DNA of 64,000 nt from Protoeuglena noctilucae (taxonomy: Eukaryota; Chlorophyta; Pedinophyceae; Marsupiomonadales; Marsupiomonadaceae). Numbering within the stretch: position 1 is the first letter of the stretch; every line of letters begins with the position of its first letter. The stretch is taken from NCBI GenBank assembly GCA_958009085.1, contig OY253677.1, positions 964,564 through 1,028,563 on the forward strand, in the 5' to 3' direction. Shown here piece by piece: positions 6,426 to 62,639 of this stretch. The notes below the pieces were generated by a model. The model was given only the letters and a program-made list of their open reading frames with translations. It did no database searches and had not been told where the DNA came from. The translations under genes and the position numbers were made by a program.

Positions 6426-7784
6426 TCACGGCTGACGCGTCTGTTTTGACGCGTCGCCGCCGCCCTCAGCCGTGCCTTCCCCCTTGTCCTCTCCCTCCAC
6501 ATGGATGGTGTCTGAAATGCTGTAACCCTCGTCGGGGATGTTGGGAGGGTTGCGGCCCTTGGCAGGGGCCGCCATGGTGCGCCAGTCTTGCCCCAGAGTG
6601 GGGCTGTGGCCGGGTGTGGTGCCCCAGACGTGGCCGTTCAGGTAGCGAGTGGAGTCGAACGCCTCGTCCTGGCGACGCCCCACGTCCGTGGCAGAGTAGC
6701 CAGACCGCGTGACGAAACCTGGTCACAGAAGGAGAGGGGCACGTGTCATATCTGTGTGCCATTCAAATCCATGGCACGGCACGGAAGGGTCGTCGGCCCG
6801 CACCTGCGCGGGCCTGCTCGGCGGCTTCATCGCATGCAGGACGAGCCCTGCCCCCCTGCGTGCGCTGGGACGGGGGTCTCGGGGACAAGGGGGGCCTCTG
6901 ACTCTGCCAGCAGGCACCCGTGGGTATGCCAGGCGCCACGTACATCACCAGCACACCCAGCACGCGCCCCTCACCTCCGCCCTTCTCCCCCGACCCATTG
7001 TCCTGCAGGTACGCCTGCCACAGCACCTCCTTGGCGGACGCAGTGTGGCTCGTTACCCTGGCCAGCCCTGCCAGGTCCTCCGGGTCCATCCGCATGGCGT
7101 CCTTGGCTGCGTCGTCCGACTCCGCCAGCACCAGGATGGGCTGCCCCACCTCCACGTGCTGCCCCTCCTCCACCAGCAGCCGCCCCACGTAGCCCTCGTC
7201 CGCCAGCTCCACTTGCAGCCGCGACACGCCCGCCAACTTGCCCACCTTCTCCCCCGGCGGGACCAGGTTATCCGTCTCGACCTCCGCCACAACCGCGTTG
7301 GCCGGCACAAAGTCGCCGTGCGCGACCTTCCAATGCGCCACCCGCCCCGACGTCATCTCGTGGCTGAGCTTCGGCATCTTTAGGAACGCCACCCGGTCTG
7401 CGGAGTCTTGAAGGGCCTCGATCGACACCGAAGGCCCATTGTCATAACCACTAGCACATACAAAAACAGTACAGTCGCGTGGAGACCATCGACGGCCTCG
7501 GCGCGGGCCCCAGCCTCGCCTTTGATGGCCGCTGCCGTGCTCGCCGCCCGCGAGGCGAACGCAGGAGATAGGGGGGCGCGATCGAGCACATTCGTCGCAA
7601 CGCCTTCGATTGGCGACACGCCGGGTGAAGGCCCGCGCTGAACGAATGCGCCGGGCAGAGTCGATGCACCTCCACACAGCACGACCGCGCCAACAGCGCC
7701 GACGTCGCGCCGAAGGCTCGCGCCCGATGCAGCCCCGAAGAGCCGCATGCTCACGGGCAGGAGGCGCGCGCAGGATGGCGGCAT
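6426..7784 (-). CDS. Mitochondrial-type protein with a lipoyl-like domain lacking the usual lysine
   Basis: Three exons (7784-7520, 7397-6975, 6718-6426) join in phase to 326 residues. The first intron has a GC donor. The leader (MPPSCARLLPVSMRLFGAA) is Arg/Ala/Ser-rich with few acids, like a mitochondrial presequence; the ATG at 7748 is an alternative start. Residues 89-175 match the biotinyl/lipoyl fold: FLKMPKLSHEMTSG, then EVETD, then VGRLLVEEGQHVEVGQPI. In dihydrolipoamide acyltransferases the ETD is followed by the lipoylated Lys; here residue 132 is Asn, and about 14 extra residues follow. The roughly 120-residue tail (GYSATDVGRRQDEAFDS) has no acyltransferase or E3-binding domain that I can recognise. 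It may be a structural subunit of a 2-oxoacid dehydrogenase or another mitochondrial complex. Confidence 0.75.
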
Positions 7785-8153
7785 GGCGCCCAGAATGCGT
7801 GGAGGTGGACAGCGCCAACTGGAAACACCGTCAACAGGGCCCAGCCCTTTCACGCCGTCGGATGGACCGGCACAACTGGGCTCGCAGGACGTGCACGGAC
7901 AGTCTCATGGGCGAAACGTGTCCATGACCAGCGTCATGCATGCGCCAGTGTTTACCAGGTGTCGTGTCTTAGTGCTGTGCACTGTGCACGTGGGGCGCGA
8001 TCTCCTCGTCTCGACTCTATGGCCTTTCAAAGAGGGTCCATCCCGGTTGCCCACCCCCAGCGTGCAGGCACGGCAGTCGTCGGCGGCACCCTCCCGCCAG
8101 GCCACGCTCCCCAGTCAACAAACCAGCATAAACCCCAGGGCCGACGCGTTGGC
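7785..8153. other. Intergenic, no gene seen
   Basis: This lies between the lipoyl-like gene start and the eS25 stop codon, both on the minus strand. It should hold the 3' UTR of eS25 and the promoter of the lipoyl-like gene. I see no coding frame with splice support. Confidence 0.6.
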
Positions 8154-9098
8154 CTACTCGGCGCTGCCGCCGACCGCCCGCGTGTAGATGGCCTGCGCAT
8201 GGTGCACGTTGACGGGCTTGATCGCGCCCTTGGCCAGGAGCTCCTTCAGCGCGGCGCGGGCCAGCGAGCCCGAGATCCGGAGGCGGTCCGACAGAGTGGA
8301 GACCGTGATGAGCTTGGACTTGACAACCTCGTTGTTGAGCTGCGGGGACGAGGCGGGGACGAGCGGAGGATTGAGCCAAGCGACGGGCCGGCGCACGGCC
8401 GCCTAGCAAAGCTGTTACAGATGCAGGAAAGCCCGCATGCAGAGGCCAGGAGCGCAAGGCCGGCGCAAGGAGAGGGTGCCAACCGGGGGCTGCCGACCGC
8501 TGCACCGTGTGCCAAGGCGGGCGCCCGCACCTTCTCGTACGTGGCCTTGTCGAAGAGGACTAAGTTGTTGACCTTCTCCTTCAGCTTGCCCTGCAGGAAG
8601 CACCGGGGACGGGCCGAGGTTGCCCGGTGTGCAGAAAGCGACGGTCGCAGGGCCGAAGGCACCCACGCCGGGGCGGGAGAGCCCCCGCGGAGAGCCCAGC
8701 GAGCGAGAGACACGATCACAGGGCTGAGCACGCCTCGCAGCTCGCCTTCGACCACTTCTTCTTCTTCCCCTTGGACGCGTTGGCCGCGGCCAGGGCCTTG
8801 GCGGCCTTGGACGCCTGGATCTTCGGCGGCTGCGGGCAACGCGACGAGGAGGCCGTTTACTACCAGGCCAGGCGCGACGCTCAGCCCCGACGGCCCCGGG
8901 GCGCTGCAACGCGGCCAGAAGGGGCAGGCGGGTCGGCGTGGCGGGAAACGCGCGCGGAGGCGGGCCGACGACCTCTCATGAGATCAAGCAACAAGTTCAC
9001 GGGCAAGGATGCCCGAGGGGAGCGCGAACGGCCCAGTCGTGGCTAGTCGTCCCGCGTCGTCGACGGCGGGGGCCACGGTGGCGCTCATCGCTCACCAT
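8154..9098 (-). CDS. RPS25: 40S ribosomal protein eS25
   Basis: Four exons join to 110 residues: 9098-9096 (the ATG alone), 8829-8746, 8590-8531 and 8339-8154. The start is fixed by the splice: ATG, then a GT donor, then CCGCCGAAG, which gives the eukaryotic eS25 start MPPK. The product has the Lys-rich linker GKKKKWSK, then NNLVLFDKATYEK, then the winged-helix part SDRLRISGSLARAALKELL and the end AIYTRA, all typical of eS25. Intron 2 begins with GC (AAG/GCGAGC). The protein binds the head of the small subunit near the E site and, in other eukaryotes, helps IRES-driven initiation. Length is normal for the family (about 105-125). Confidence 0.95.
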
Positions 9099-9256
9099 TT
9101 TGGCGTCTTTTTCCCTCCGAAAGGCAGGACCCGGGCGCCCGGCCCTCCTCTTGGCGCTCCCGGTCGAGTCAGGTGCTGCGCCAGAAAAAAGTTTCAATCG
9201 AGGGGGACCCAAGGGCCCGAAAAGTCGCCGCTTCGACGCGTCCCACCCCGCGCGAC

Positions 9257-11726
9257 TCAGGCTAATGGCACGGCGAGGTCTTTGCGCGCCGTGGCGATGA
9301 TCTCGGCCATCGGGGCGTCCGTTTTCAGCGCCTCGGTCGAGAACTGGGTCAGGCTCGCCGCGAAACCGCGCAGCCGCAGTGCGTCCACCATGCTCGCAGG
9401 GCTGCGTGGGCAGCGTGGGCGGGGAGGGTCTGGTGGTGCCCAAAACAACTGCCCTGGGAGGGGTGCAAACGCGCGCATGGCTGCTCCCTCACCTGGGCGT
9501 CTCGCGGAGACGTCCGAGACGCGCCACGTCCGCCACGGGCACGTACCACGGCGGGAGGGCCGCGTCCCCCTCCTCGTCCATCGCGGCCAGCACGGAGGCG
9601 AGCTGCCCCTCCCGCACCCGCCCTCGCTTGGGCAGCGGGAATTCGCAGTCGCTGCCCGCGCTGCCAGCCTCGTCACGCGGCAACGCAACCCGAGCGGCGC
9701 TGTCCCCGCCCCTGCCCCCCCTCGCCACCTCCCCCGCCAGCCCGTCCACTTTGTCAAAGAGTGCCACGAACTCCTCCACAATGTCCGACACGTCCACCAC
9801 CTCGTCCTCGTCCCCCTCCTCCGCCCCCTTGACGGCCGCCATCACCGGCCCCGGCAGCGGACCCCGACTCTCTGTGCTGCCTGCTTGAAGAGCCCCCCCT
9901 GCCGCCCCTTGGGAATCCCCCACTGCCCCCTGGTGCCGACTTGGTGGGCTGGCGCCATTGGCCCACCCCCGCGCCACAGCCTCGTGGGCCAGCCGCGCAA
10001 CGAACGCCCGCGAATGCAGCGGCCCCACCCAAAGTGGCCCCTGCACGACGACGCTGTCCGGGTCCACCTCGGGCCCCACCAGCGCCGCCGCAGATGCGAG
10101 CCTGCGTGCGCGGAGATCGGCTCATCGATGCACCGAATAGGTCCATTCGCACCCAGCGCAAGCCAAGTGCGCGGCGGCACCTCTCAATGGGCACCACGGC
10201 CCAGTCTCCCGACGCAGGGTCGTGCGCGATGTACGCGATGGCCTCCGCGGCCCCCACGGCCTCCCTCCCGCGGCTCTGGAAGGTACACCGAAGCACGGGC
10301 CCGTGGGACGAATACTGGCTGAAGGCCGGCTCCAGCCGCACGCCCTGCTGACTCGCAGCCAGCACCGTGCGCGCGATGAGGGCCCTGCGGGGTGAGGGAG
10401 CAGGCGCGACGATGACGAGGCGGGCGAAGCAGCGTCGCGGCGCCGCGCCCGTGGTGTGCCGGGCGTCACCTCAAGACCAGCTCGTCCCCGCACGGCCCGG
10501 GCAGCACGGCCGCCCCAAGGTGGGCGAGGCACTGGGCGGGGCGGTGGCCCCCGCACGCCGGCCCATCCGACACGGCCACCGTCAGCAGCCCCCCGAACCT
10601 CAAGGCGCCGACGGCCGGGGTCAGCACCGCCCCCGGCAGTCCAAACGCATCCACATCGACGACGTCCATGAAGTCCTCGGACAGGAAGGCGTGGGCCAGG
10701 ACGCGGGAGGCGTCGAAGTGCGACACCCGCCAGGGGACCGCCCCGTTTGGCAGCCCCAGCCCTGCCCAGTGGTGGGACGAGGCCTTGGGCTCCCAGGCCA
10801 ACCTGAGGAGGGCATGGGGAGCAGGTAACGGCGCTGGCGGCACGGGGAGGGTGACATCGTCGGTAGGTTCGCACGCTGTCGTGAGATGAGTCCGAAGGGG
10901 GTGAGGGGCGTGCATCTGCAGCACATGCTTCTCACCCCTGCAGCCCCTCCAGCTTGACCCCCTGGACGGACCCAGTCTGGTTGCAGCTTTCGTCCGATGT
11001 CCCCTCTCGCCCATCGCCCTCAACCTGGCCCAGGGCGTCCGTGGCACCCTGGCGCTGGTCCGCCCGCAGCTGTGCCGCCCGCCTGCATATTGCCCACGAC
11101 CACGTCGTGAGAATTTGGGTTGGCGTCGTTTGCCCACACAAAGTCCGCGTTCGCCTGCACCAGATATCGGCCGGCGCTGCGGGAAGCGGGAAAGGCGCGC
11201 TTGGCACGGCAGCCCCCTCACGCTCCGCTGGCAGCCCTGCGTCACTCACCGGACTCCGCAGCCAGTCATGAGGTCCAACACGCGCAGCCTCCCCGTATCT
11301 TTCCGAACCACCGACGCGGCCAGCACGGCCAGGTCCCTGCGCGGGCGCGGCGGCTGTTGACCTTCGGTGGCTGCTTTACTCGCTGGCCACTCGCCATCCA
11401 CAGCGCGGCGAGGGTGGCTCGCACCTGGCAACCGCGCTCTCGTCCCGATAGAAGAGGGAACCATCGGAAAACTCAAAGCCGCGCTCGCATCGGAGATGCG
11501 CGCCTTCCTCGGCATCCGGGCGTGCCTGTGCGTTGGCCGTAGCTGCCGCGCCCGGCCGACAGATGTGGCGACTTCCCGATGTCCTCAAGTGCCGGTAGAG
11601 CCTCCCGCCCGACGAAGCCACCAGTCTACTACAGCGGAGACGGCCGGGGTCGGGCGGCCCGCAGACAGGGAGAGCGCGCGATATAGCATGCGCGCCGGCC
11701 CAACAGGAGGGCCCGGGCGCAGCCAT
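9257..11726 (-). CDS. TRM1: TRM1-like tRNA (guanine26-N2)-dimethyltransferase
   Basis: Eight exons join in phase to 604 residues: 11726-11425, 11336-11250, 11176-11083, 10976-10936, 10802-10470, 10384-10181, 10101-9493 and 9401-9257. Intron 3 has a GC donor. A transit-like leader of about 75 residues precedes ERGFEFSDGSLFYRDESAV. The SAM pocket follows (RLRVLDLMTGCGVR, then VWANDANPNS), then the catalytic DVVDVDAFGLPG, GGHRPAQ and QYSSHGPVLRC. These match the plant second TRM1 type rather than yeast Trm1. The usual CxxC zinc site after the SHGP segment is not visible. The C-terminal domain (VVVQGPLWVGPLHS to ARKDLAVPLA) is complete, with an acidic insertion. Likely role: N2,N2-dimethylguanosine formation, possibly in an organelle. 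Confidence 0.88.
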
Positions 11727-12149: not shown

Positions 12150-15100
12150 ATGGACGAGCTGGATATCGACGACCTCGTGCGGGAAGACCAGGTGCGCTGC
12201 ACGGTGCACGTATTTCCCACTCGGCCCCCGCGTGCGGCGTGTCGTCTGCCGAACAGCCCCACGTGCATCGCTCAGTGCTATGTTCATAAGAAGAGCTCTC
12301 ATCGTCGGGCGCCCTGCGGCCCTCGCGCTTGCGGCACCGCAGGCTGGCTGGCGCCAGGCTGTGCCCCCTCTCGCGCCGCTTCGCAGCAATGGATGCAGGA
12401 TGAGGAGTACCTGGAGGACGAGGAGGCCATGATGGACTGCACGGACGCGGGTCAGCTCCGAGGCGGGACCCATCCCTCCCGCCTCAACCGCCCCACCGCG
12501 TCGGCGTCCGTGCACCAGCCCACGCCCTGCACGGCGCTGTCCGGCCTCGCAAGCGCCACGCAGGCGACGGAGGGACCCCCGCTCGACACGCAGCGGGGCG
12601 AGGACCTCCTGGCGTTGGCCGCTGGCCCACTCACGCAGACACAGGGCGGGGTCAGGGAGGTGCCCGGACCTGACGAGGAGGCAAGGGGCTGCGGGGCGAA
12701 CGCAGCGGATGGCGCTGCCCATGACTGCAACACCCAGACTTTCACATCCAAGATGTCGTGGCCTGTTGTCGGACTCTTAGTCACGACCCACGCTCCTCCT
12801 ATCCCCCGCAGCTCCCCCGCCTCCACTGGCACCGCGGCGAGGCGTCCTGGGACCCCTCGGGGCCCTTCTCGGTGGAGATCACAGCCCCGGACATGGGCGA
12901 CCGCGTATACTGCTGCGCGTTGGAAGCAGAGGCCGCGGCACTAGATGGGGCGGGGCTGGGGACGGGCATGCATGCGGCACTGCGGGGAGCGGAGCAGAGG
13001 GACACGCTGCTGACCAAGGCGAGCGGGCTGTCGAGGGTGTTGTTGCGACGCACATGTGATGCACTAGTGGTTGAGGTGCCTGGTTGCCACCATGCATGCT
13101 GGCCCATCCTGTTGCCCCTGCGCGGTCGCAGCCGATCGATCAGCTGATGCGGGAGGTGGAGGCCATGCACGTGGAGCGCATTCTGGAACTGACGCGGCGG
13201 GAGCAGCAGGCCGCGGAGGCCCTGGGGGCGGGGGACACTCCCACTGACGACGCCAGGGAGGGGGAGGGGCACGGGCAGCTGTGGGTGGACAAGCACGCGC
13301 CCAAGGTGGGGCTGGCGTGACTCTGCTACCATTTACATTGAAAGTGCGTGTCCTGCATCAGCGCTTTCCAGTTACACTCATTGTGTTATGACATGTGTAC
13401 CATGACGCCCTGCCCCACACTGCTGCAGCGCTACACTGATCTTCTGAGCCCCGAGAGCGTCAACCGCGAGGTTCTCGCGTGGCTGCGTTCCTGGGACGCG
13501 TGCGTGTTCCGCCGCCCCGTCCCCGACGCCGTGCTGCAGCTGGGGGCGGGCGCCGTGCGGCACGACTTCCATTGGTCCGAGGCGAGGAGGGAGGCCACAA
13601 GGAGGAGGGCGGGCGACGCGGAGGCGGCAGCGTGGCAGCTCGGACCCGACAAGCGGCCCCGGCATAAGGCGAGGCCGGGCATGCAACGGGTGACGCTGGA
13701 TGCAAGCCTTGCCTGCACTGGTGTGCGACCAAAACGCAAGCGTCGCCCCCACCCAGATCATCCTCCTCTGCGGCCCCCCCGGCATGGGCAAGACGACCCT
13801 GGCCCACGTGGCTGCCGCCCAGTGTGGTTACCGCGTCGTGGAGGTCAATGCCTCGGACGACCGCACAGGGTCGGCCCTGGCCACGCGCATCGCAGACGCG
13901 GCGTCCAATCGATCCGTCACGGCAGACAGGAGGCCCGTGTGGTGAGATACAGACAGACGCACCTGGCCCAGCCCCACCGCTTGTGCGCTCGCATGTGCCC
14001 TGTGGCCATCGCCTAATGCACCCCCCTGCTGCAGCGTCATTGTGGACGAGGTCGACGGTGTGCTGGGCGGCGAGTGCCAGGGGGCGGTGGCCGCGCTGCT
14101 TTCCCTGGTGCGCAGCGAGGGGGGGCGGCAGGGGCAGGGGGGGACCATGGGAGGGGACGCGGGGGTGGCATCCGACAGCGACGACGAGGGCCGGGCGGCG
14201 CCGACCACGCCCGCGCGCAAGACGCCGGTGCGTGGCGGCGCCTCCCCCCTGCGCGGCGGGGCTTCCCCTTTCCGCGACTCTGGGTCGGGGCGGCGGGGGC
14301 GGATGGGCACGGGCGCTCCCCGGGCGCTGCTGCGCCCCGTCATCTGCATCTGCAACGACGTGTCGGCCCCGGCCCTGCGACCCCTCAAGGAGGTGGCGCG
14401 CGTCTTCCACTTCACGCGCCCCAGGTGGGACGTAGTTACATGCCGCCTGCCTCCGCTGCTACCCTCTCATGTGCCACCGCAAGCGAAAAGCTTTTCGCTT
14501 TTTCAAGCGCCTCTGTCACGCAATGCGACGTGCTCTGACGTGTCAACTCTGCCATTCCCCATGTCGTGTTTCGCAGCGTTGCCGCCGTCACCGACCGACT
14601 CCGCGACGTGGCGCGGTCCGAGGGCGTCCGCACCGACCTGCGCGCTTTGCAGGTGCTGTGCGACAAGACGGGCGCCGACGTGCGCGCCTGCCTCCACACG
14701 CTGCAGTTCGTGCACCGCCAGGGCAGGCACCTCACGGTGGCCGATGTCCTGGGAATGACATTCGGTGCCAAGGACATGACCAAGGCAAGGGGGTACTTGC
14801 TAGCGATAAGCAAGTTGCGTGGGTATCTACACAGTCGGACTTGGTTGCCAACCACAGCCTTTCTCTCCATGACCCCCGCAGTCCATCTTCCAGCTCTGGG
14901 ACGACCTCTTCCACACGCCCTTTGCCGACCACGCCTCGGCACCCGCCTCGGGCACCCTGTCCCTCTTCCACACCCTCCAGGGCCACGGCGACTACGGCGT
15001 CGTCGCCGCCGGGTGCTTCGAGAACGTCACGGCTGTCTTGGGCGGCGACAGCGCTGTGGACCGACGCGCCGGCCCCGCTGCTGCCGCCCTCTCCGCGGCC

Positions 15101-16902
15101 GACGCCCTGGCCACCGCCGCCGCGAGGAGGGGGGACTTCGGGTGCCTGCAGGCGAGACACGATGGCATGGCCAGCCACAACCACTTTGTCATAAGCACAC
15201 ACCCCAGCTGTGTCTCCTCACGCCCCGTGTCACCATGTGCACACACCCCAGCCCCGTAACCTGACCCCCATACCGTGTCCCTGTGCTCCGCAGTACGTCC
15301 CCGGCTTCCTCCTCTCGTTCCGCATGCACGTGGCCGGCCCCCACCGCCACTTCCTCCACTGGCCCCGTGTGGATACGGAGGCCGGGCGCAGGCGGGCCGC
15401 CAACCACGCCCTCGTGCGGGGGTGGGCCAGGGGCGTCGACCCCACCGCGCGACCCTCCCTGCGCGGCGCCTGCGCCGTCGCCGAGGTCATCCCCGCCGTC
15501 GTCTGGGCCGTGGCGCCCGTCATACGGTAACAGACACAGCTGCTGGTCTGCTGCCCTGCATGACAGCTCTGGGGGCCGCCTCACACCTCACCCCCAACCC
15601 CACCCCCAGGCCCGTGCCCATGGACCTCCTGACCCAGCCCGAGCGCGTCCTGCTCTCTGAGGCGGCCGACACCCTCCTGGCCCTCGGCCTCAAGTTCGCC
15701 CCCGACCCCCACCCCGTCCCCAACGCCCTCGGCCAGGTGAGATGGCCAGGCAGTCTGCGCAGTGCTGACACCCTGCATGACGAACACAGCACGCTGACTG
15801 CATTGCCAGGAATTGGCTCTCGACAGCGACGCATGCCGTATCAACTCTCATCTCATGTGCAGCCGGACGATGGGGAGGACCTGCGAGGGAAGATCCGCTT
15901 CCGCCCCTGCACGCCCGTGTCCCTGGAGCCTCCCCTCGACACCCTGCACTGCTACGGGGGCCGACCGCCCAGGGGCCGGGAGGTCCCGCCGTCCGTGCGG
16001 TGAGGGGCACACGCATAGCCAAGCAGCGACACCCCCCGTGCGGCGGGCATCAGCCGCGGATATCAGTGACAGCTGGGTGGTGCTCTCTCGGGTTCGCTTT
16101 CCAGCTCCTCACACCCGCACCGTGCCCCACATGCGCTGCCTGACGCTGCCCTGAGTGGTGCCCCTGTGGTCGCAGGCAGCTGTTGACCCGGGCGGTCCAA
16201 GACGAGGCCATCCGACGCGCAGCCACGCGGGGCATGGCGGGAGAGGACGGACTCAGTCCGGGGCCGAAGCCAACGACCCCGGGGACGCCGCAGACCAGGG
16301 CCACCCCTGGCAGGGAGGGGACGGGGGGGTCACGGGGGCGCAAGAGAGCCGGGCAGGGCAGCACGCCCGGCACGCTGGCGTGGGTGAGAGTCGCGGAATG
16401 GCGCATTCCTAGGCGCGCAGCCACGGTGTCTCTCCGAGGCCGGGAAGCCTGGCACTGTGCTCTGGCACGCCGTGGTTGCCAGCGCTGTGCGTGTCTGACT
16501 GGGTTGCCCCTCCCCTTCGACCCTGGCCCAGGAGCCCAGCCGAGTGGTGGCGACGCTGGAGGAGCGCATGGCCAGCCACGCGCCGCAGCCCAAGCGTGCC
16601 CGGGTGGGCGGCGCGACGTGGATGGACCAAGCGAGGGAGCAGCGCCGGGGGGCCGAGTGGGGCGGGGCCGACAGGGGCAGGTGGGGAGGAGAGCTGTCTG
16701 GCACATGGCGTTGTGAAAAGGTGACGTGGGGATGTTTGTTAATCATGGACTGAGATATGCCATTACGCGCCTCGACTGCAGGCCTGGGGCCGGAGGTGGG
16801 GACAGGGGCGGGACGCGGGACACCGGGGTGCGGTTCCGTCACAACGAGGGCCTCACCAACGCCATCCGGCGCGCCGTGCGTATGCGGGATCTGCTGGGGT
16901 GA
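12150..16902 (+). CDS. CTF18: CTF18/CHTF18, large subunit of the alternative PCNA clamp loader
   Basis: Fifteen exons join in phase to 993 residues: 12150-12191, 12387-12659, 12812-13036, 13132-13305, 13429-13668, 13757-13941, 14035-14424, 14577-14784, 14882-15151, 15294-15526, 15610-15736, 15863-15999, 16176-16383, 16532-16680 and 16782-16902. An acidic N terminus is followed by LWVDKHAPK, the Walker A ILLCGPPGMGKTT (about 320-332), NASDDR, Walker B VIVDEVDG (about 381), sensor RPVICICND and the CTF18 middle domain. The end RFRHNEGLTNAIRRAV is the conserved tail that binds Dcc1-Ctf8. A Gly/Ser/Arg-rich insertion interrupts the AAA+ domain. Introns 5, 8 and 9 have GC donors. Known role: PCNA loading and sister chromatid cohesion in the nucleus. 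Confidence 0.95.
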
Positions 16903-17206: not shown

Positions 17207-18778
17207 TTAGGGCGAGGGCACGAAGCGGCTGGCGGCGTAGGCGAACCCTGCGGGGATAACGCGAGGGGGGGGATTAAGACATGCAGGCGGCTGGTGTCAT
17301 CGCAACGAGGGAAGTTGACATCGCGACATCCCAGCCAGCACGAGGGACGTTGTTATGACACCGACTTGTCCCATTCCCGCGCTTGCTCCACCGCCGCTCA
17401 CCATTGTTGGTGCCGGGGTCGGCGAGGTGCGCCTTGAGGTTGGCGATGGGGCCCTCGCCCGTCACGATGGCCTGGACGAAGAAGCCGAACATGGAGAACA
17501 TGGCCAGGCGGCCGTTCTTGATCTCCTTCACCTTGAGCTCGGCGAACGTGTCGGGGTCGTCGGCCAGGCCCAGGGGGTCAAACGCCTCGCCGGGGTAGAG
17601 GGAGTCGAGGCCCTCGCCCGCCGGGCCGCCGTTCACGCGGTACGCCTCGACGGCGCCCATGAGCAGCACCTGGGGGACAGGGTCGGGGCGAGGTGGTGTA
17701 AGATGACTGCTCCAGCAGTGCAGTCGTTGCTCATCACCCTCATCGCCCCTGCCTTGCTCCCCAGCCCTCCCCGCGCTCGCCTGGCAGATGAGCGTGGCGA
17801 TGATGCTCTTGGCGTGGATGAGGGCGTTGGAGCCGAGGTAGTTGAGGCCGTTGTCCTGGAAGATCTGGGCGCCAGCCTTGAACCACACGGGCTCAGCGAA
17901 CTTGACGCCGTTGTCGGCGAGCAGCTCGGGCGTCACGCAGCCAAGGGCGCCGAGCATGGCCCAGCGGGCGTGGATGACCTCGAGCTCCCGGTTGCGGCGG
18001 AAGGCCTCGGGGTCCGCCGACAGGCCCGCCGAGTCCCAGCCGTAGTCACCGGGGAACTCGCCCTTCAGGTACGACGGCGGGTTCGTGAACGGGCCCAGGT
18101 ACGTGGCGCGGTTGGGGCCGTACCACTCGACCGCGGCGCGGGTCACGCGGCGGGTGCCCTGGGAGCAAGGAGTGGGTGGGGCTGATACGTCGATCCGGTC
18201 CAATCCTGCCGACCCGCGCCATGCAGGGCGCAGCGCGAGCGAAAACGCAGATGTCGTGGCCGAGATCGGAGCCCTGGAGAGCGCGATCGCGTGAAAGGAC
18301 GCCGGCCGAGTGCTTTGCACGAAATCTAGGTTCGGGCGCGCCCGCACGGCGAGGGACGCACAGCCACGCACAGCGCGGCCTACAATCGGCGTAAAGAACT
18401 CGCTTACGCAAGTCTCGAGACCCGATCCGAGCCCCTCGAGCCCGGGCCGAGGAGCGGGCATGTCCCGAATCGGAAAGCGAACCCATGCCCCGCACGCCGC
18501 GGCCAGTGGGTGAGCGGGGGGCGCGGTCGCGTACTCGGCTTTTAAAGAGCGGAACAAAGCGCGCAGGCGGTCCAGGGAGCGCCTGGGTCGGCAGGGCTGG
18601 GGCTGGAACCAGCTCTGCGCCGGCTACACGGTCCGGGCGGGAGCCCCATGCATGCGATCAGGCACTCGAAACGACTTCTGTTCGGAGGACGACGCGGGGG
18701 CCCGATCATGAGGACGAGAGAGCTCACCTTGCCGGCAGCCGCGGGGGCCGCGAGGGTCTTGCCAAGGAACGACGCCAT
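17207..18778 (-). CDS. LHCB: Major light-harvesting chlorophyll a/b-binding protein of LHCII
   Basis: Four exons join to 245 residues: 18778-18728, 18158-17781, 17669-17402 and 17247-17207. A short plastid leader ([17 protein letters not shown]) ends exactly at the first, 569-base intron. The mature protein carries WYGPNR, the WYxxxR trimerisation and phosphatidylglycerol motif of trimeric LHCII. Helix B has [16 protein letters not shown] and helix C has [19 protein letters not shown]; both contain the Glu-Arg pairs and chlorophyll ligands. The end [11 protein letters not shown] is typical. Intron 2 has a GC donor (CAG/GCGAGC). It binds chlorophyll a, b and carotenoids in the thylakoid. The LHCBM-type assignment is firm; the exact isoform is not. 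Confidence 0.95.
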
Positions 18779-19190: not shown

Positions 19191-21489
19191 TCAGGGCTGC
19201 CCCGCCACCAGCAGCTTCCCCCCCTGCACCGTCGCCTGCGTCAGGGGCACCCCCACCGCCCGCGCCAGCTCCACCAGTTTCACCAGCAGAGGGTCGGCCG
19301 CGTCCCGGCCCACCCCCGCGCGGAAGCGCTGCAAGGCCGCGGCCAGGTCCACGGGGCGGTACCTGTCCATGGCCACCACCGCCGCCCCCGCCGCCACCAC
19401 CACCCCCACCAGCACCGCCACCGACAGCACCAGCCGCACCAGGGCGCGCCCCACGGCCCCGGCGCCCGCCGCCACCCCCGCGCCCGCCGTCGCCGCGCCC
19501 CTGCTCGCCCCGCCGGCCTTGCCCGCCGCCCCCACCCCCGCGGGTGCCTTGCCCGTCAGCGCGCACACCGCCTCCTCCGCGTGGTGGGCGTGCTTGGACG
19601 CCGACGTGCCCCGCTGGTCCAGGAGCTTGGCGTGCCTGGAGAGGGAGAGAGCAGCGCGTAGTACGTGGGGATTGCAACGTATCTGTGCAACATGCCGGCT
19701 GCGGCATCTCTCTCGTGACACGCCCTCCCTCTCACCTGGCGCTCATGTCTCGCAGCATGGCCTGGACGTGCTTGAGCTTCACCTCGCGGGCCGCGGCCTC
19801 CCCGCCGGCCCCCGCCGCCAGGGCCCGCAGCAGGCGGCTCGACCCACGCAGGCCCGGCTTGTGCTTGCCAGCCCAGGCCTCGGCAGCCTCAGGGCACACG
19901 GCCACGGCGTGCAGGGCCAGAGGGGCCAGGTGCGCCAGGGACGGGTCGTTGACGCTCTCGGCACGCCGCTCAGCTGCGGGGAGGGGCGGCGCGGTCGGTG
20001 GACCTTCCATGCGTGGCATGCGGCGCAGGGACTACGCTGTTGGCAGCTGCGCGACGTGCCCGCAGCCACGCAGGCCGTGACGATCTCGGAGCAGAAGCCC
20101 TTGCGGTCCTTCTTGATGGCCCCCTCGGAGAGAGCGGCCAAAAGCTGCGCTGCCTGCTCGCGGCACGCGCGGGGCAGCGGCACGGTGGGGGCAGCCGCGT
20201 GGGCGGTGGCAGTGCCCGAGGGAGGCGGGGCGAGGGACAGGGCGAGGGCGAGGAGGGCACCGGGGGGCGCCACGGCCTCGCCGATGCCCGGGGCCGCCTT
20301 GGAAGGCGCGGACGGAGCGGCGCGGAGGAGGGAGAGGGCCAGGGACAGGAAGGCCTGAGAGAGAGAGGGACACCGCACAGGGGTGGCGCTGTGCTTCGCT
20401 TGCAGGAATGGGGTGACGCGCATTGACTACCAAGTGTATGCAGTGCATCTACCATGCGGCAGTCGTGCTGGCATTCCCCTCCTTGCCTGGGAGGCGGCGG
20501 CCGGCATGACCGCCACGGTCGCGGCATCGGGGACATCCACCTTGGCCCCGAGGGGGTCGAGGAGTGCCCCGGCGTACGAGGGCCCGACGACCTGGGGGAG
20601 GACGGCGCGCATAAAGAGCCCCAGGGCGGACAGGGAGCCCGCGGGGTTGCGTGCCATCTGGGGACAAAGAGATGGGGTAGCCATAAGGGAGGGGAAGTGG
20701 AGAGGTGGTGAGAGGAAACTGGGAGCCATGCGCATTGCCATGCGGGGGCGGACCACGCACCTGCTGCAGGGCGTAGACCAGGAGGGTGTGCGTGCTGGGC
20801 CCGGTGAGCACGGGCCCCAGGCGGAGGACCCCCGGCCACGCGGCAGCGACGCCCGCAGGCGAGGCGCGGCAGAGTGCGGCGAGGGCCACGAGGGCGCCCG
20901 TCTCGAAGTTGGCGGTGCCGAGGGTGCGGGAGGCCCCGCGGAGGAGCGACACGGCCGCGGACCCCACCCCCGCGGCGTCCTTGCCCGCCAGCCACGTCTG
21001 CAGGCGGTCCCAGGGCTCCCTGGACAGGAAGACGGGGGTAAGGGCTGGGTCGCACGCGAGAGGACACTAAGCTTGGGTGGCATGTAATCAATTGCGGTGC
21101 CCTAAGGGAGGCTGCGAAATCTGCATGGCTGCGAAATCTGCATGCGCCCTGGCACTCACTTGGGCACGGCCGCCACGGCGTCCACGTCGCCGGACAGCAC
21201 GGCGGCCGGCTCCGTGGCGCAGTCGGCGAAGCACGCCACGAGGGGCTCCAGGGCCGCCCCGACCTGCTCGGCCGCTCCCTTGTACTGCTTGTCGGCCGCG
21301 GCCATCGCCTCCGTCAGCGCGGCGAGCGTGACGCCGGCGCCGCACTCGGCCACCTTGCGCTTCGGGGCCGCCTTGCGGGGCTCCGCCGAGGGCTTCTTGG
21401 CCTGCAAGCAACGCGGTTGTGAGCTTGGCCGAGCCTGTGCATCCATCGCCCTTCCGCGCGCTCGCGCCGCGCCGCACGTGCCTTGGCAG
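19191..21489 (-). CDS. TMEM214-like ER membrane protein, 5' end lost in the assembly gap
   Basis: Six resolved exons join in phase for 549 residues up to the stop: 21401-21160, 21019-20761, 20657-20487, 20354-20060, 19973-19736 and 19635-19191. A further upstream exon runs into the N block. The protein is a long array of Ala/Leu helices (LLVYALQQMARNPAG, LGLFMRAVLPQVVG, LAHLAPLALHAVAVCPEAAEAW), followed near the C terminus by one membrane span (LVRLVLSVAVLVGVVVAAG) and a luminal-type tail. This order matches the plant TMEM214-like family, whose human relative sits in the ER and takes part in stress-induced caspase-4 recruitment; the algal function is unknown. Two introns have GC donors (CAG/GCAAGG at 20486 and CGG/GCACGT at 20059). 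Confidence 0.6.
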
Positions 21490-50675: not shown

Positions 50676-52783
50676 ATGAGCGGCGACGAGCCGGAGCGCC
50701 CGGGAGCTTCTATGGCAGGGGATGGCGTCGTCTCGGGGCGGGATGGTGCCGGCGCGGAGGATCGCGGGGGCGTCAGGGCACTCCCTGTGGACGGCCCGGC
50801 CAGCCACGGCGCGCATCCTCGGATGGACGACGACGGGGAGGAGGACGAGCCGGGCCATCTCTCATCAGACGCCGATTCCATGGGCAAGTCGCGAACGGCG
50901 CCGCTCTCGCTGGGACCGCGTTCTACGCTGGCCACCCACCGTCCCTCTCCCCGCCCTAGCTGACTCGCTGGCCCTTGTCCCCGCGCGCCCAGACTCGAGC
51001 GAGGAGGAGGAGATGGTGGCGTCGCCGCTGCGCGTGCTGCTGGTGGAGGACGACCCGCTGACCACCAAGGTCGTGCGGGCGCTGCTGCGGGCGTGCGGGT
51101 ACGAGGTCCTGCTGGCCAGCAACGGGAGGCAGGCCATGGGTGAGGCCGGGGATGCGCTAGGACCGGCACCGCGGGTGTCTTCAGAGCACCCCGCCGCCCC
51201 ACACAGTGCAGCACCATACGCGACCCGTCCCTCTGCCCCGCACAGATGTGATTGACCGCGAGGGTGGCAACGTGGACGTGGTGCTGACGGACGTGCTGAT
51301 GCCGGAGATTTCGGGGTTCGAGCTCCTGATCAACCTCATCCAGCAGCCCCAGTACGCCCACATCGCCATCATCCTGATGTCGTCCTCGTCCTCCCAGGCG
51401 AGCTGAGCTGGGCATGAAGCAGGGGCGCGCAGCGACGTGGTCAGGACTGTGGATGGTTTGACTGTGGATGGTCTGTAACTCGCCCCCCACTGCCCGCCCT
51501 GCCCCAGGACATGGTGATGCGTGCGCACGAGGCAGGCGCCGCGGACTTCCTCTGCAAGCCCGTGAGCCGCGAGGCGGTGCTGGAGCTGCGGCGGCACGCC
51601 CACGCGCACCGGGACACGGGGCGGAGTCGCGAGCCGTCGGACGGGGCGGCGGGGGCACGGGGAGCGGGGTCGCCCGTGGCTGAGGGGGCGGGGAAGCGTG
51701 GGGAGGAGGCGGGGACGAGCAGCAGCCAGGGGACGGGTGAGATGGGCGGTGGCATCGCGCGAGCATGGGCTGCGTGCGGCATGGGGTGTGAGTGACGTGC
51801 GGCTTAGGGATGCTTTCGCATGCCATGATGTGGAAATGGAATGTTGTGCTTGGTTGGCATTGCAGAGGGGCCACGGACGCGGCGGACGAGCATCCCTGGG
51901 CGGGAGAGCGGCGGCGCTGTGGAGGGCGCGCATGGGGCGGGGGAGGAGGGCGGACAGGCGGTGCAGAGGTGAGGGGGTGGCACGGGAACGGGAGAGGGGA
52001 GCAGTGTGCCTCTGGGATGGCAGCCATCGCAACAGGCGGCGATGATCCATATCGTCGCCTAACCGCAGGCTGCCTCGCGCACTGATGGAGCTGTCGATGA
52101 TTGGGGCCGAGCGCGAGCGGCTGAGGCAGGCCGGCGGGGTCGACCCCAGCGCGCAGGCCTTCCCCCGGCCAGGCCCGCGGTCGGCCTTCCAGCCCTTTCA
52201 GTCTTTCCAGTCCTTCGCGGCGCTGGTGCCTCGCCCCGTGCCGCGCCCCTCCGCGGCTGAGCCACGGGGACCCGTGTCCCCTGGGGGGGCAGCCACGGGA
52301 TCCCCAGGCGCATGGGGCGCGGAAGACGAGGGCGCGCTGTCGCGGGAGGGCGCACTGGCGCTGACGGACCTGGGGCGAGGCGCTGCGCCTGCGGACGGGG
52401 CCGGCATGGCGGCAGAGGCGCAGCACTTCTTTGCAGCGGTGAGGCATCTTGACGTGGGGAGGCGTCGCGGGTGGCTGCGAGCCCGGGCGTTCTCGCGCTG
52501 AGTCCCTTTGCCTACTCCCCCGCCTCAGTTCCAAGAGGCGCTCAAGCAGGGCCGCGTGCTGAGCCCCGGCGGGCGGCCGGCCAAGAGCGCGGCGGCCGCG
52601 GCAGCCCGGGCGGCGGCCCTGTCTCGCTTCCGCGAAAAGCGCAAGAACCGCACGTTCCAGAAGAAGGTCCGGTACGAGTCTCGCAAGAAGCTGGCCGAGC
52701 AGCGCCCTCGCATCGGGGGGCAGTTCGTCAAGCAGGAGGTGGCCGCGGCGCTGGCTGCGGTGGAGCTGGCCGCTGGGAAGTGA
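50676..52783 (+). CDS. TOC1: TOC1/PRR-like response regulator with CCT domain
   Basis: Seven exons (50676-50883, 50993-51139, 51246-51397, 51508-51736, 51866-51968, 52069-52438, 52529-52783) join in phase to 487 residues. An acidic N terminus precedes a receiver domain: [12 protein letters not shown] (acidic pair at 89-90), [13 protein letters not shown] with the phosphoacceptor position Asp134, and FLCKPV with Lys186. A disordered middle leads to a C-terminal CCT motif at about 430-473 ([20 protein letters not shown]). This order is that of plant clock PRRs and TOC1. Land-plant PRRs replace the phosphoacceptor Asp, usually by Glu; here it is kept, as I recall for prasinophyte TOC1. Introns 1 and 3 have GC donors. 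It is likely a nuclear transcription regulator in the circadian clock. Confidence 0.9.
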
Positions 52784-53093: not shown

Positions 53094-54967
53094 ATGGACC
53101 GGGGCGCGGCCCCGCGCGTCCGCGCGCTTGCTGTGACCTTCGCACTGCTCTCATGTCTCCTGAACGCGCTGGCGTTCCAGGCGAGTTCTTTTTGCATTCT
53201 GCGTGGCCCTTCAGCACATCTCAACATACAACGATCGCTGGCTGCCCTATCCAACCCCTCCTGACTTCACAAGCCCTTTCATGAGCCTCGTGCATTCGCA
53301 GCTCCCTCCATTCCCTCCCAAGGACTTCCTCTCGCACGATGTGACTGCCTCGCCACCCCAGCCTGGTGAGGGACCTCTCCTCAGCCCAGGAAACACAGCT
53401 TCGCATCACCCACGCTTGTTACATGTACCCTTGCCCCGACCTGCGTCGCCGCAGCTGCATATATGCCCAACCCGCCACCTCGCCTCGTGGCCATCGGAGA
53501 CCTGCACGGTGATCTGTCCGCGGCACTGGCGACCCTGGAGCTGGCCGGGGTGGTGGCGCCTGGCCACGGGGGCCGCATCGACCGCACCGTGTGGGCGGGT
53601 GGGGACACGCTCGTGGTGCAGATGGGGGACTTCACGGACCGGGGACCCAGCGAGATTAAGGCGAGGGCACGTCGATGGGGTGATAGAGACGGTCATGGGG
53701 ATCGCTGCCTGGTCAGTCGGACCGACGAACGCACGACTCACTGTGATGTCATGCACCTAGCTTCCTCGTCCCTCTGCAGATTCTGCTGCTGATGCGGTGG
53801 TTGGCGTCCCAAGCGCGACGCGAGGGGGGCGACGTGGTCATGCTGCTGGGCAACCACGACGCCATGCAGGCGAGGGCAGCGGCCGCAGACCAGGGGCACG
53901 GAGGCATGCACCTCGCTTGATGTGGTGGCAGTCCGAGCCTGTGCCTGGCTTGTTTACCCACACCCCAGGTGGCGGGTGACTTCCGCTACGTCCACCGGAT
54001 GGCCTACCAGGAGACCGCGGCCCTGCTGCCGGGGCTGACGGACGAGCAGCGGAGCAGCCCCGAGGCCCTGCGGCAGGCGCGACGGATGCTGTGGGGCCCG
54101 GGGGCTCCCGTGGCGGCGGAGATGGCGTGGAACCCCACGGTGCTGGTGGTGGGGGACACGCTGTTCGTGCACGGGGGCCTCTTGCCAGGCGAGGGGCGTG
54201 GATGGGGCGCAGTGGCTCGTGCCATGCAAAGGACACGCTGACTGCTCACGTCTATGCCACTTCTGGGCCTCAGGGCACCTGGACGGCCCGGGTCTCCAGG
54301 GCATGAACGACGACGTGGCTGCGTGGATGTGGGGCGCGCCGGTCGAGCGCCCCGCCCAGGGCCACGGCTCGCTGCCCTCCATCTACGCCGACTTAGAGGG
54401 CCCCTTCTGGCAGCGCCTGTACTCCAACCTGCCCAGCAACTTCGTGGCCAGCGAGGCGTGCCCCACGCTGCAGGAGACGCTGCAGAGGGTCAGGTGCGTC
54501 CGCTGCAGCACTGGGCTCACGTGGGTGCGAGGCGCCCCCTGCACTTGCGGCATCTGCGTTCTGGTATCTCCGTCTCGCAGCGACTCGTGGCCGGGGGAAG
54601 GTGGGCCTGTCGTCCGCCGCATCGTCATGGGCCACACCCCTCAGGTGACGGCACAGGGGCCAGCAAGTGGGCCAGGCATGGTTTCCGGTGTGGCCCCTGG
54701 TGATTGTCGGGCGGCATCCCTCAGCGCACCCATCCCTCGCAGGTGGAGCTGACACCCGGGCTGTTTGGGTCGGGGGCGCGCCTGCTGGGCATCAACGCCG
54801 TCTGCGACGGGGCGGCGTGGCGCATCGACGCCGGCCTCAGCGCCGGCATGTTTGGCGCGGACCCGGAGGTGCTGGAGGTCACGTGGACGGACCGGGACGA
54901 CGGGGGCGCGGCGTCGACGGTGCGCGTCATCCGGAGCGATGGTGGCAAGGGTAAGGACGAGCTGTAG
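53094..54967 (+). CDS. Shewanella-like (SLP-type) PPP-family protein phosphatase with a signal peptide
   Basis: Eight exons (53094-53180, 53302-53365, 53455-53660, 53780-53869, 53969-54188, 54274-54493, 54581-54644, 54743-54967) join in phase to 391 residues. Exon 1 is a signal peptide (LAVTFALLSCLLNALAFQ). The metal-binding motifs are in order: GDLHGD (65-70), GDFTDRG (108-114), LGNHDAM (142-148), FVHGG and VMGHTPQ. GNHD in place of the usual PPP GNHE still supplies an acidic residue. The pattern fits bacterial-derived SLP phosphatases of plants and algae, which act in chloroplast, mitochondrial intermembrane space or secretory routes. Four of seven introns (1, 3, 4, 5) have GC donors. Exon 8 is duplicated at 58839. 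Confidence 0.9.
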
Positions 54968-59063: not shown

Positions 59064-59353
59064 CGGGCGGGTGCCAGGGTGTAACAGCCGGCCGCATTCA
59101 AGGACTGTGACTGCAGCGCGCGGGTGCCAGGGTCTGACAGGCGCACGCAAGGACTGTGCTGGAAAAGTGGGGTAGGGTTAGCCCTGGGGTAGCGCACGAT
59201 CAATGCAATTCTCGAGGTACTCTGAAAGCGCGACTGTTGGCAGCGGAAGCGACTGCGTGCGCCATGGCAAGGGGAAGGAAGCACAAGTAGGAGAAGCACG
59301 ACAGCGATGGCAGGCGTGCGCTTGCCTGGGGTGGCAGGTTTCAGCGACGGGAC

Positions 59354-59677
59354 CTAGGCCACGCCGCCATGTTGCATAGCGCTCCGCAGCACACGATGGC
59401 TGCCGTTGCTGCGGTGGATGCCCGAGGGTCCCGCGCCGTCGTCCTGCGGGGGCTCCGCGGCCTTGCGCTTGCCCTGGCGGCCGTTGGTCGCGGCGCCAGC
59501 CTGAGGGGCGAGGCGGGGGGCGGCTGGCCCGGCCGCCGCAGCTCCGCCCGGCTGCTGCGCCTGCGCCCCGTCCACCGCCTCAAACAAGCCATCCAGCAAG
59601 CGCACGTGGGCTTCGGGCACGTGCAGGGGGCCTCTGAGCGGCTTGGTGGGGTCGAACTTGAGGGTGGAGAAGAAGAC
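59354..59677 (-). pseudogene. Orphan copy of the 3' end of the Hsp70-like gene
   Basis: About 108 codons of the last Hsp70-like exon (FFSTLKFDPTKPLRG to the stop) are repeated here. The match stops abruptly at 59677 and the frame above it is unrelated sequence. No ATPase part is present. Only a few base changes from the parent are seen (for example GTC to GTG at about 59415). Confidence 0.85.
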
Positions 59678-59881
59678 GCAGCCCTGGAGATGCTTTCGCA
59701 TTTTGTGCCGCAGCGCCAGTAGGTCGTCCCCCTCCGCGACCCCATGCCTCCTCCGCGTCGATCGCCACCCCCGCGCTGATTCCGGCGACTGCTTTAGCCA
59801 CTACGCGCCCGTTGATCTAGCGAAAGCGACGCGGGAAGGGAGGGTCTTTTTGGTTGGGAGGTGCGAGTGCGATCGGAGGTC

Positions 59882-62639
59882 ATGGCGGACAACGAGTTCG
59901 CGGAGGAGGAGGTCCTCGACTTCGACGAGGAGCAGGAGCAGCAGGTGAACCTCCCGCGACGACCAACCATCCACGCTGGGCGGGAAGGGTCCCCCGGCCG
60001 AGGCGATGACCGTGGCGTGGCAACCGGCGGCTTCCGTGGCGCTAAGAAGCTCACGGAGGATGCGCGGGCCCCGGGGTCCCGGAGAGCGTGCTCCGCAGGA
60101 GAGGCGTTTCGAGCCGCGCTCATCAGAGCCCGCCCGGACCCTCCCGTCGCCCGTCGCCTGATGTATGTGCGGAAGCGGGGGCTTTCCGGCCCTGGTCTGC
60201 GCCGGGCAGGTCGGTGGGTCGTCTTCCGTCGGAACGGCCCGGCCGCGACTCGCCTCACCGCGCGCCGGCCGCTCTCGCTTCGATGATGGAGTGTTGGCGG
60301 CAGTCGCCCCACGCTCGCCCGTCTTGATCTGCCTGGGACGCCTTCGTCTGTCTTCCTCGCCCTCTCGCGGCCCCTGGCGCCCCCTGCGTTGCTCTTCGCC
60401 CGCCTTCGTCTTTCTGGTTGGGTTGTCCGTGTTCTGGCGCTTTCTCGGGTGCACTGGCTTGCGGGCGGCGGACGTTGGGGTCTTTGCGCTTGTTGCCCAG
60501 CCTCGCGCGCCTGCTGCGGCCGCACGGGCCGGCGCCCTCGTCGCCGGACGGGATATGGGACCGAGGGTGGAGGCGGGGTGGCGGGTGGCCGCGCCCCGCA
60601 CCCCGCGCGGAGGGGGGGCCCTCACGCCTCGAGCGCGCCTGGGGCGGTCCTCGCGGGCAGGGCCGCGGCCCGGCGTCCGTCCGGCCGGCGACGGGGCGTC
60701 CCCGCGGTACCGGCGCGGCGCTGTCTGGACGGATCGCCTGAACACCGCCCGCGGCTGCTCTTGGGGTCCCACAGGTCGGCCACGCACATGACGACGGCGT
60801 CGCCACGGCCAAGGGGGACACGTACGCCGGCGCCGCGTCCGTCGGGTGGCGCGAGTTCGCCATCAAGGTGAGCGCGGCGGGGCGGGGCTGGGCATGGGCG
60901 GGGACGCATCTTGGGAGTGCTGGCCCCGGTTGCATGGGTACGCTGCCCTGCCCTTCCGCCCCCGACTCCCCCCGTCTGCTCGCCGCAGGAGGAGCTTCTG
61001 AAGGCCATCCAGGAGGCGGGGTGGGAGCACCCCTCGGAGGTCCAGCAGCAGTGCATCCCCAAGGCCATCGCGGGCGCGGACGTCATCTGCCAGGCCAAGG
61101 CCGGCCGCGGCAAGACGGGCGTGTTCGTCATCTCGCTGCTTCAGCAGCTGGACGTGGTGGAGACGGAGGACGGCAAGGACAAGGTGCTCAACGACTGCAA
61201 GGCGGTGGTGATGTGCCACACGCGCGAGCTGGCCCTGCAGATCCAGGGCGAGTTCAACCGCCTCAAGTCGCACCTCAAGAACATCCGCGTCGAGACGTTC
61301 ATGGGGGGGGTGCCGGAGGAGAAGGACGTGGCCAAGATCCAGGCGAGGGGGGTGGTGCTGCGCCGCCTTGGGGTTGCCGGGGCGGGGGGCGTGGTGCGAG
61401 AGTGCCCTTGCCTGGCACAGCGTGCCGCGCTGGCACGTCGGCCTCCCCCTTCCCACGCCTCCCCGCTTCCCTCTGACCCCCGCAGAAGGCCCAGCCCCAC
61501 ATCGCGGTGGGCACGCCCGGCCGCCTGAAGGCGCTGGTGAAGAAGGGGGCGCTGAAGCTGGCCAAGCTGCAGTTCTTCGTGCTGGACGAGTGCGACAAGA
61601 TGCTGGAGAAGGCCGACATGCGTTCGGACATCCAGGAGGTGTTCGTCCGCACCCCGGTGCAGAAGCAGGTCCTCATGTTCACGGCCACGCTGCCGGCCGA
61701 GATGCGCACGCTGTGCAAGAAGTTCATGCGCAAGAACCCCCTGGAGGTGCTGGTGGACGACGAGAAGGAGCTGACCCTGCACGGCCTGGTGCAGCACTAC
61801 GTGTCGCTGGAGGAGGACGGCAAGAACCGCAAGCTGTTCGACATCCTCGACATGCTCGACTTCAAGCAGGTCGTCATCTTCGTCAAGACGCCCAAGCGCG
61901 CAGAGGCGAGGAGGGCTGGGGGGACTTGGGGAGTCGGTGGCGTGTTGGTAGCCACATAAAGGGTCCGCGCCCTGCGTGGCGGGGATGGACACAAGCTGCG
62001 CCCCTCCCCGCGCAGGTGCTGGCCAAGCTGATGCGCCAGGTCAACTTCCCGGCCATCTGCATCCACTCGGCCATGACTCAGGATGAGCGGAGCAAGAACT
62101 TCAACGCCTTCCGCTCGGGGCAGGTGAGACCTGAGAGCCGAGCTGCGTGGTGCAGCAGCGACGGGGTGCTGGGCCCCGGGAGAGTGACAGGGGCCCACGA
62201 CTGCGTCCTAGCGGCGAATTGCCTGGTCATAGGCGCCAGTTAGGCAGGGACGCGCGTGCGGCGGCACCTGAGAGCGCTGACGGCCGGGCCGCCCCGCCTG
62301 GGACTGCAGGAGCGCATCCTGGTGTCGACGGACCTGGCCGGCCGCGGCGTGGACGTGGTGGGCGTGAACGTGGTGATCAACTACGACATGCCCGCGGACG
62401 ACGACAAGCACGGCAAGGGCGACGACACGTACCTCCACCGCGTGGGGCGCGCGGGGCGGTTCGGCACCAAGGGCCTGGCCATCACGTTCGTGGCCACGGA
62501 GGAGGACCAGCGCGTGCTGCAGAAGGTGCAGGAGCGGTTCACGGTGGAGATCAAGCCCCTGCCGGAGCAGATCGACAAGAAGCTCTACTTCCACTCCGAC
62601 AACCTCTACGACCGCGACAACATCGTCGAGGAGTTCTGA
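59882..62639 (+). CDS. SUB2: DECD-box RNA helicase UAP56/SUB2 (DDX39)
   Basis: Six exons (59882-59944, 60775-60867, 60989-61342, 61486-61905, 62016-62123, 62310-62639) join in phase to 455 residues. The acidic start [14 protein letters not shown] and WREFAIK match UAP56. Helicase motifs follow: Q motif [13 protein letters not shown], motif I AKAGRGKT (88-95), GTPGRL, motif II DECD (204-207, diagnostic of this subfamily), [20 protein letters not shown] and [10 protein letters not shown]. An insertion ([11 protein letters not shown]) sits before motif VI. The protein loads TREX and acts in splicing and mRNA export. Introns 3 and 4 have GC donors. Intron 1 is long (830 bases). Confidence 0.95.

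Follow-up and report, generated by a model that had tools for sequence, protein, structure and literature searches.

The window, a 64-kb stretch of the Protoeuglena noctilucae genome (C10:964564-1028563), carries genes for eS25, LHCII, CTF18, AP-2 alpha, a Shewanella-like phosphatase and UAP56, in each of which at least one intron is called that begins with GC rather than GT and ends with AG. The G+C content lies between 0.634 and 0.699 across the window in 4-kb steps. The original prediction, made from the letters of this DNA, had placed 27 such GC-AG introns among about 134, roughly one in five. We measured their share in 264 kb, made up of the window and of 40 kb (positions 200001-240000) from each of contigs 1, 3, 5, 7 and 9. 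These five regions were picked by position only, and with the window they represent six contigs; searches for single genes covered the whole genome of 26.3 Mb in 26 contigs.

Introns were called with a purpose-written semi-Markov gene finder that requires G at position +1 and a terminal AG. One version, blind to the +2 base, had no preference there, started from a generic donor consensus and was trained without supervision on the 264 kb. Further versions learned the +2 base from the data or were fixed to the donor sets GT only, GT+GC, GT+GG or GT+GA. The blind version called 533 introns in 94 genes, with A at +2 in 22, C in 119, G in 35 and T in 357, which puts the GC share at about one in five, provided that false introns hit C about as often as G. 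The learned version gave A 0, C 112, G 3 and T 415 among 530 introns, so that GC accounts for 21.3% of the GT+GC donors (95% interval 18.0-24.9%). GC-AG introns thus make up about a fifth of all introns in this alga, as originally proposed, and not a share near 1%; in the window alone they number 35 of 138 GT+GC introns in the learned model. The share per region ranges from 14 to 28% without significant heterogeneity (P 0.32). The GT-only model reached total log-odds of 14279.7, compared with 15127.8 for GT+GC, 14485.0 for GT+GG and 14353.0 for GT+GA, so that permitting GC gains 848 nats over GT only, GG 205 and GA 73. The impression that GC use is uneven between genes did not hold up, as GC introns are clustered by gene no more than expected by chance (shuffle P 0.17).

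The same training was applied to synthetic genomes in which true GC donors amounted to 0%, 1% and 20% (0/460, 3/481 and 88/466 introns). The GT+GC model called 0, 1 and 92 GC introns in these, and the +2-blind C counts were 23, 41 and 104; in the genome devoid of GC donors, permitting GC brought no gain in likelihood. The real data resemble the 20% simulation. In that simulation 76 of the 92 GC calls were true and 16, about a sixth, were wrong, which calls for caution with singly predicted introns that have no further support. GC and GT introns are similar in acceptors, phases, relative positions and length (median 116 versus 126). The possibility that coding segments had been mistaken for introns was dropped, the shares of introns with a length of 3n and no stop being alike (GC 0.161, GT 0.142). 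As an observation on its own, acceptors of both classes read mainly GCAG in the six regions, position -3 being C in 97-99% and position -4 being G in 68-74%.

Two genes could be compared with spliced proteins. A protein search with the phosphatase model retrieved P0001 (391 amino acids; from jgi and lgn; on contigs of up to 4200 nt, a length that alone leaves room for a splice-aware prediction from DNA), which is letter-identical to the window translation over seven introns, of which four are GC-AG and three GT-AG. The longest unbroken piece of P0001 in any forward frame of the window has 75 amino acids. P0001 also sets the first acceptor of the gene at 53301, where the gene finder had 53361, and gives exon 2 a length of 64 nt (53302-53365) in place of a 4-nt exon. 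The UAP56 model retrieved P0241 (460 amino acids; jgi; 1559-nt contig), which matches exactly across two GC-AG and three GT-AG introns and adds five in-frame residues upstream. Its contig must be spliced, because the UAP56 gene occupies 2773 nt of genomic DNA, against 1383 nt once spliced. At none of the six GC junctions does a GT..AG placement within 25 bases yield the same protein, so that GT donors a few bases away were not found there. Judged by these matches, the GC donors in the phosphatase and UAP56 genes are spliced, within a set of six GC-AG and six GT-AG introns; both genes were queried for their many GC calls or their conservation, so the six of 12 should not be taken as the general share. 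A query with the model for RRP44, a gene on contig 7, returned no protein of this species among the 120 matches listed (highest identity 53%).

Single junctions were further compared with homologues in six genes, by scoring in-frame, stop-free alternatives (GT or retained, and GC) with donor and acceptor each at most 150 bases away. These genes had been named in the original prediction or were picked for their GC calls, and the scores support single junctions, not the overall share. The five in the window, eS25, LHCII, AP-2 alpha (two models), CTF18 and UAP56, contain 39 introns; 8 of the 11 called as GC favour GC, and 21 of the 28 called as GT favour GT. In RRP44, five of seven GC calls favour GC (by 3.0, 15.5, 8.9, 12.1 and 16.4 bits) and all nine GT calls favour GT. 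Taken over the six genes, GC outscores all GT or retained alternatives tried at 13 of 18 GC-called introns, and GT outscores all GC alternatives at 30 of 37 GT-called introns. The proposal that the five conserved window genes join through GC is borne out at eight of the nine listed introns tested, the ninth, 32388, being not judgeable.

Homology does not favour the remaining five GC-called introns. GT is clearly better in two of them, the CTF18 intron at 13019, a GC call outside the original list (7.6 bits), and RRP44 intron 1 (13.7 bits). Three are undecided: beside 32388, homology is uninformative for 12681, also a GC call outside that list, and in RRP44 intron 10 the best GT alternative scores 0.6 bits above the call while a GC placement with the acceptor shifted by 3 bases scores 4.8 bits above it.

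All 27 donors originally listed read G|GC on the strand given. Most had been described as strong U1 matches apart from the C, and 20 indeed carry all four core bases (-2A, -1G, +4A, +5G), six carry three and one carries two. The +2-blind finder recovers 25 of the 27, missing 7519 (minus strand) and 45839 (plus); the learned model also recovers 25, missing 45839 and 61343 (both plus); the GT+GC model recovers 24, and the three combined 26. The intron at 7519 is doubtful, and 45839 (ACG|GCAAGT), which none of the three models recovers and which sits within a predicted GT intron (45794-45875), is probably wrong and not a donor. Independent support exists for 12 of the 27, from an exact spliced protein in six and from homology in eight, with both for 61343 and 61906. 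Besides these 12 and the uninformative 32388, 13 donors rest on the gene finder and their context, and 45839 on nothing. Each model also called 10 window GC donors that the list lacks, some of which are false or doubtful, as at 13019. Coordinates are given in Table 1. Among the genes with predicted introns, we take the one with 10962..11082 to be Trm1-like, the one with 47788..47872 to resemble C2/SMP-domain genes and the one shared by 50884 and 51398 to be response-regulator/CCT-like; the gene with the doubtful intron 7398..7519 is presumably lipoyl-domain-like.

Table 1. GC-AG introns of the window, with donor sequence (exon|intron) and supporting evidence.
Feature	Position	Strand	Donor	Evidence
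GC-AG intron 1, Shewanella-like phosphatase gene	53181..53301	+	CAG|GCGAGT	P0001 exact
GC-AG intron 3, phosphatase gene	53661..53779	+	AAG|GCGAGG	P0001 exact
GC-AG intron 4, phosphatase gene	53870..53968	+	CAG|GCGAGG	P0001 exact
GC-AG intron 5, phosphatase gene	54189..54273	+	CAG|GCGAGG	P0001 exact
GC-AG intron 3, UAP56 gene	61343..61485	+	CAG|GCGAGG	P0241 exact; homology +1.5 bits; missed by 2 of 3 gene-finder models
GC-AG intron 4, UAP56 gene	61906..62015	+	GAG|GCGAGG	P0241 exact; homology +10.9 bits
GC-AG intron, eS25 gene	8591..8745	-	AAG|GCGAGC	homology +19.2 bits versus best of 3 GT/retained alternatives
GC-AG intron, LHCII gene	17670..17780	-	CAG|GCGAGC	homology +19.8 bits versus retention, best of 45 alternatives
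GC-AG intron, CTF18 gene	13669..13756	+	AAG|GCGAGG	homology +11.6 bits
GC-AG intron, CTF18 gene	14785..14881	+	AAG|GCAAGG	homology +26.0 bits
GC-AG intron, CTF18 gene	15152..15293	+	CAG|GCGAGA	homology +6.1 bits
GC-AG intron, AP-2 alpha gene	29110..29280	+	CAG|GCGAGC	homology +7.0 bits
Predicted GC-AG intron, AP-2 alpha gene	32388..32518	+		gene finder; homology uninformative
Predicted GC-AG intron	10962..11082	-		gene finder
Predicted GC-AG intron, weak donor	19974..20059	-	CGG|GCACGT	gene finder
Predicted GC-AG intron	20355..20486	-		gene finder
Predicted GC-AG intron	25941..26111	+		gene finder
Predicted GC-AG intron	26288..26443	+		gene finder
Predicted GC-AG intron	36152..36309	+		gene finder
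Predicted GC-AG intron	40835..40923	+		gene finder
Predicted GC-AG intron	41761..41850	+		gene finder
Predicted GC-AG intron	44647..44780	+		gene finder
Predicted GC-AG intron	47788..47872	+		gene finder
Predicted GC-AG intron	50884..50992	+		gene finder
Predicted GC-AG intron, same gene as 50884	51398..51507	+		gene finder
Doubtful GC-AG intron	7398..7519	-		learned-+2 model only

The use of GC depends sharply on the rest of the donor. Where the core is complete, GC is found in 74 of 154 donors (48%, learned model), and where a single base departs it falls to 6-10% (9/130 for -2 only, 2/26 for -1 only, 8/82 for +4 only and 2/34 for +5 only). The +2-blind model gives the same picture, with GC in 76 of 154 donors with a full core and in 28 of 251 with three of the four bases (Fisher 3.5e-17). 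The pattern is not made by the finder, because in a simulation with context-free GC donors it returned 17% and 24-27% for these classes, where the truth was 16% and 25%. GC donors lie closer to the consensus than GT donors at -2A (89/112 versus 228/415), +4A (93/112 versus 284/415) and +5G (105/112 versus 351/415). Moreover, +3A is associated with GC (17/112 versus 16/415), and +6T is so in a joint fit only. The bodies of GT introns have a C/T ratio of 1.56, so that a neutral +2 base would be expected to be C in 61% of C+T; full-core donors show 48-49% C. When donors were ranked by computed U1 duplex energy, the GC share was 0.39 in the strongest class and 0.02-0.09 in the next three.

The splicing machinery was searched for in the whole genome. 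A single U1 match was found, at L001:1501, with the canonical 5' end AUACUUACCUG; it scores 65.9 bits, just below the Rfam cut-off of 69.5, and 41 of 427 candidates were scored. U6 carries the ACAGAG box and U1-C starts with MPRYYCDYCDSFLTHDS; we take this box and the U1-C zinc finger to be ordinary. Prp8 was located, and SNRNP27 and a Methyltransf_10 match (METTL16 family) are present. Only one Luc7 locus was found with expect values (E) up to 10, at C1:730498-731383 (L027, L028, L029), presumably of the LUC7L3 type by its motifs, and a LUC7L2-type gene may be absent or may escape detection because introns break it up too much. None of the machinery features tested explains the high GC share. 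The minor spliceosome was considered and dropped: the donor consensus AG|G[TC]GAG is not of the U12 type, and no U11 match was found in the genome at E up to 1. From the U1-like consensus and the lack of a U11 match, we infer that the major spliceosome removes the GC-AG introns and that they belong to the ordinary U2 type.

The original prediction had taken the alga for a trebouxiophyte. In a tree of 23 UAP56 sequences it groups instead with Pedinophyceae sp. YPF-701 and three unnamed sequences, with support of 100/100. This pedinophyte placement comes from one gene, and the other deep forks of the tree are weak. The closest named UAP56 is that of YPF-701, at 68% identity. Three UAP56 proteins, P0242, P0243 and P0244 (jgi/lgn), are 78-83% identical to that of the window and group with it; close relatives therefore exist in public sequence data. 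YPF-701 now bears the name Akinorimonas japonica (PMC12574857).

A few other GC-rich algae are already on record with abundant GC-AG introns; this is another case. Micromonas pusilla is a mamiellophyte, Aureococcus a pelagophyte and Emiliania a haptophyte; GC-AG donors of plants and animals are otherwise strong. The yardstick of about 1% in most eukaryotes, against which the one-in-five share had been set, suits plants, which average 1.2% (PMC6310983), but not GC-rich algae, some of which reach 7.7-65% and one of which has 2.7% (PMC3033335, PMC4028052). As in plants and animals, GC-AG is the major non-canonical class here, whereas it forms about 1% of introns there and about 21% in this alga (PMC6310983, PMC7072748). 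Iwata and Gotoh (2011; PMC3033335) gave shares of 39.6% for Aureococcus anophagefferens, 22.2% for Micromonas pusilla, 7.7% for Chlorella sp. and 2.7% for Micromonas RCC299, described the share as loosely tied to G+C content, noted canonical U1 ends and termed the origin an enigma. Micromonas pusilla and Aureococcus share with our alga a GC-rich genome (65.9% and 69.5%) and the U1 end AUACUUACCUG, but the available text of that paper does not report that GC use in these two species depends on the other donor bases. Emiliania huxleyi is similar in its GC-rich genome (65%), its abundant GC donors and its nearly unchanged AG acceptors, and differs in that GC donors are the majority and intron retention is high; the shares given are 56% in curated genes and 61-65% in RNA-based sets, with 39% in unfiltered expressed sequence tags and 15% in older gene models (PMC4028052). 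G(C/A)-AG introns are also mentioned in one dinoflagellate gene (PMC5029490). The texts found on Auxenochlorella, Chloropicon and pedinophytes gave no donor share. The literature searched, which did not cover the nuclear genome paper on YPF-701, contained no pedinophyte case of GC-AG introns and no sharp dependence on donor context. By the one gene tree, another green-algal lineage joins the few with abundant GC-AG introns. Gene finders that allow GT donors only would get many genes of this alga wrong.

The high share probably reflects mutation pressure towards G and C on the +2 base, buffered by strong pairing of the donor with U1, possibly with a lineage-specific relaxation besides. Given good pairing with U1 at -2, -1 and +3 to +6, the +2 base would hardly matter for splicing, and in a GC-rich genome it would drift to near its mutational balance; a single core mismatch would make +2C costly and bring the share down as seen. 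The limiting step would probably be recognition by U1 and not the hand-over to U6, because the compensating positions flank the junction, and those in the exon pair with U1, not U6. Since GC donors are much scarcer in some other GC-rich algae, a modest lineage-specific relaxation may be required in addition, in a protein of the U1 or U5/U6 machinery or in a modification of its RNA. Whether the +2 base, which ranks among the most tightly constrained sites of eukaryotic genes, is near neutral in this alga wherever the core pairing bases are all right, and strongly constrained after one mismatch, is a narrower claim to which we give an even chance. If it is true, the genome-wide GC-AG share would equal mutation bias times the fraction of donors with a perfect core, which would offer a testable answer to the large difference between Micromonas pusilla and RCC299. 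The enigma of 2011 would become a measurable rule, relating the constraint on +2 to the strength of the remaining donor (PMC3033335).

Several results sit badly with this explanation, the five GC calls that homology does not favour among them. GC pressure alone is insufficient: Micromonas RCC299 has 2.7% GC-AG introns at 64.1% GC, M. pusilla 22.2% at 65.9%, and Chlorella sp. 7.7% despite a higher GC content than M. pusilla (PMC3033335). In our own data the differences at -1G and +6T are not significant when taken alone, and the duplex-energy curve is non-monotonic, the GC share being 0.14-0.22 in the three weakest classes. We take that weak-donor tail for gene-finder noise, an unproven reading, because G and A are frequent there too among the calls of the blind model (C 14, G 11, A 8 and T 56 in the class with two core matches).

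A change in a trans-acting factor (U1-C, Luc7, Prp8, or a modification of U1 or U6) that relaxes the reading of +2 could instead be the main cause, which we consider less likely. GC content is a poor predictor across algae, and Iwata and Gotoh suspected U1 base modifications or U1 proteins (PMC3033335); the single Luc7 locus fits as well. Yet nothing unusual is apparent in the U1 end, the U6 box or the zinc finger of U1-C, SNRNP27 and the METTL16-family match are present, and a general relaxation should lift GC in weak donors too, whereas single departures leave it at 6-10%. Far less plausible is a variant U1 with G facing +2 and a full match to GC donors: nothing was found in its support, and the only U1 match in the 26.3 Mb is the canonical one, although a very divergent copy could escape a search in which 41 of 427 candidates were scored.

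That the real donors are GT a few bases off, or the introns unreal, is barely credible. Such an artefact might be suspected because, of the four AG|GNRAG words, AG|GCRAG occurs most often in the 264 kb (170/457), and from the five GC calls not favoured by homology and the wrong calls in simulation. It is contradicted at the 12 donors with independent support, six of them fixed by exact proteins, as well as by the +2-blind counts, the likelihood gains, the simulations and the likeness of GC and GT introns in length, acceptor, phase and stop-free share. Equally remote is C-to-U editing that turns GC into GU ahead of splicing, which DNA and spliced products by themselves would not reveal, but whose context rule would have to coincide with that of U1 pairing; no nuclear editing system of this kind is known.

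The region of the phosphatase gene also holds a duplication. A piece in which the phosphatase gene and the convergent Hsp70-like gene have their 3' ends occurs twice, at 54698-55406 and 58794-59521 of the window, about 4.1 kb apart. The gene finder yields fragments only in the second copy, and the duplication was detected as two 300-nt pairs of 99% and 97% identity.

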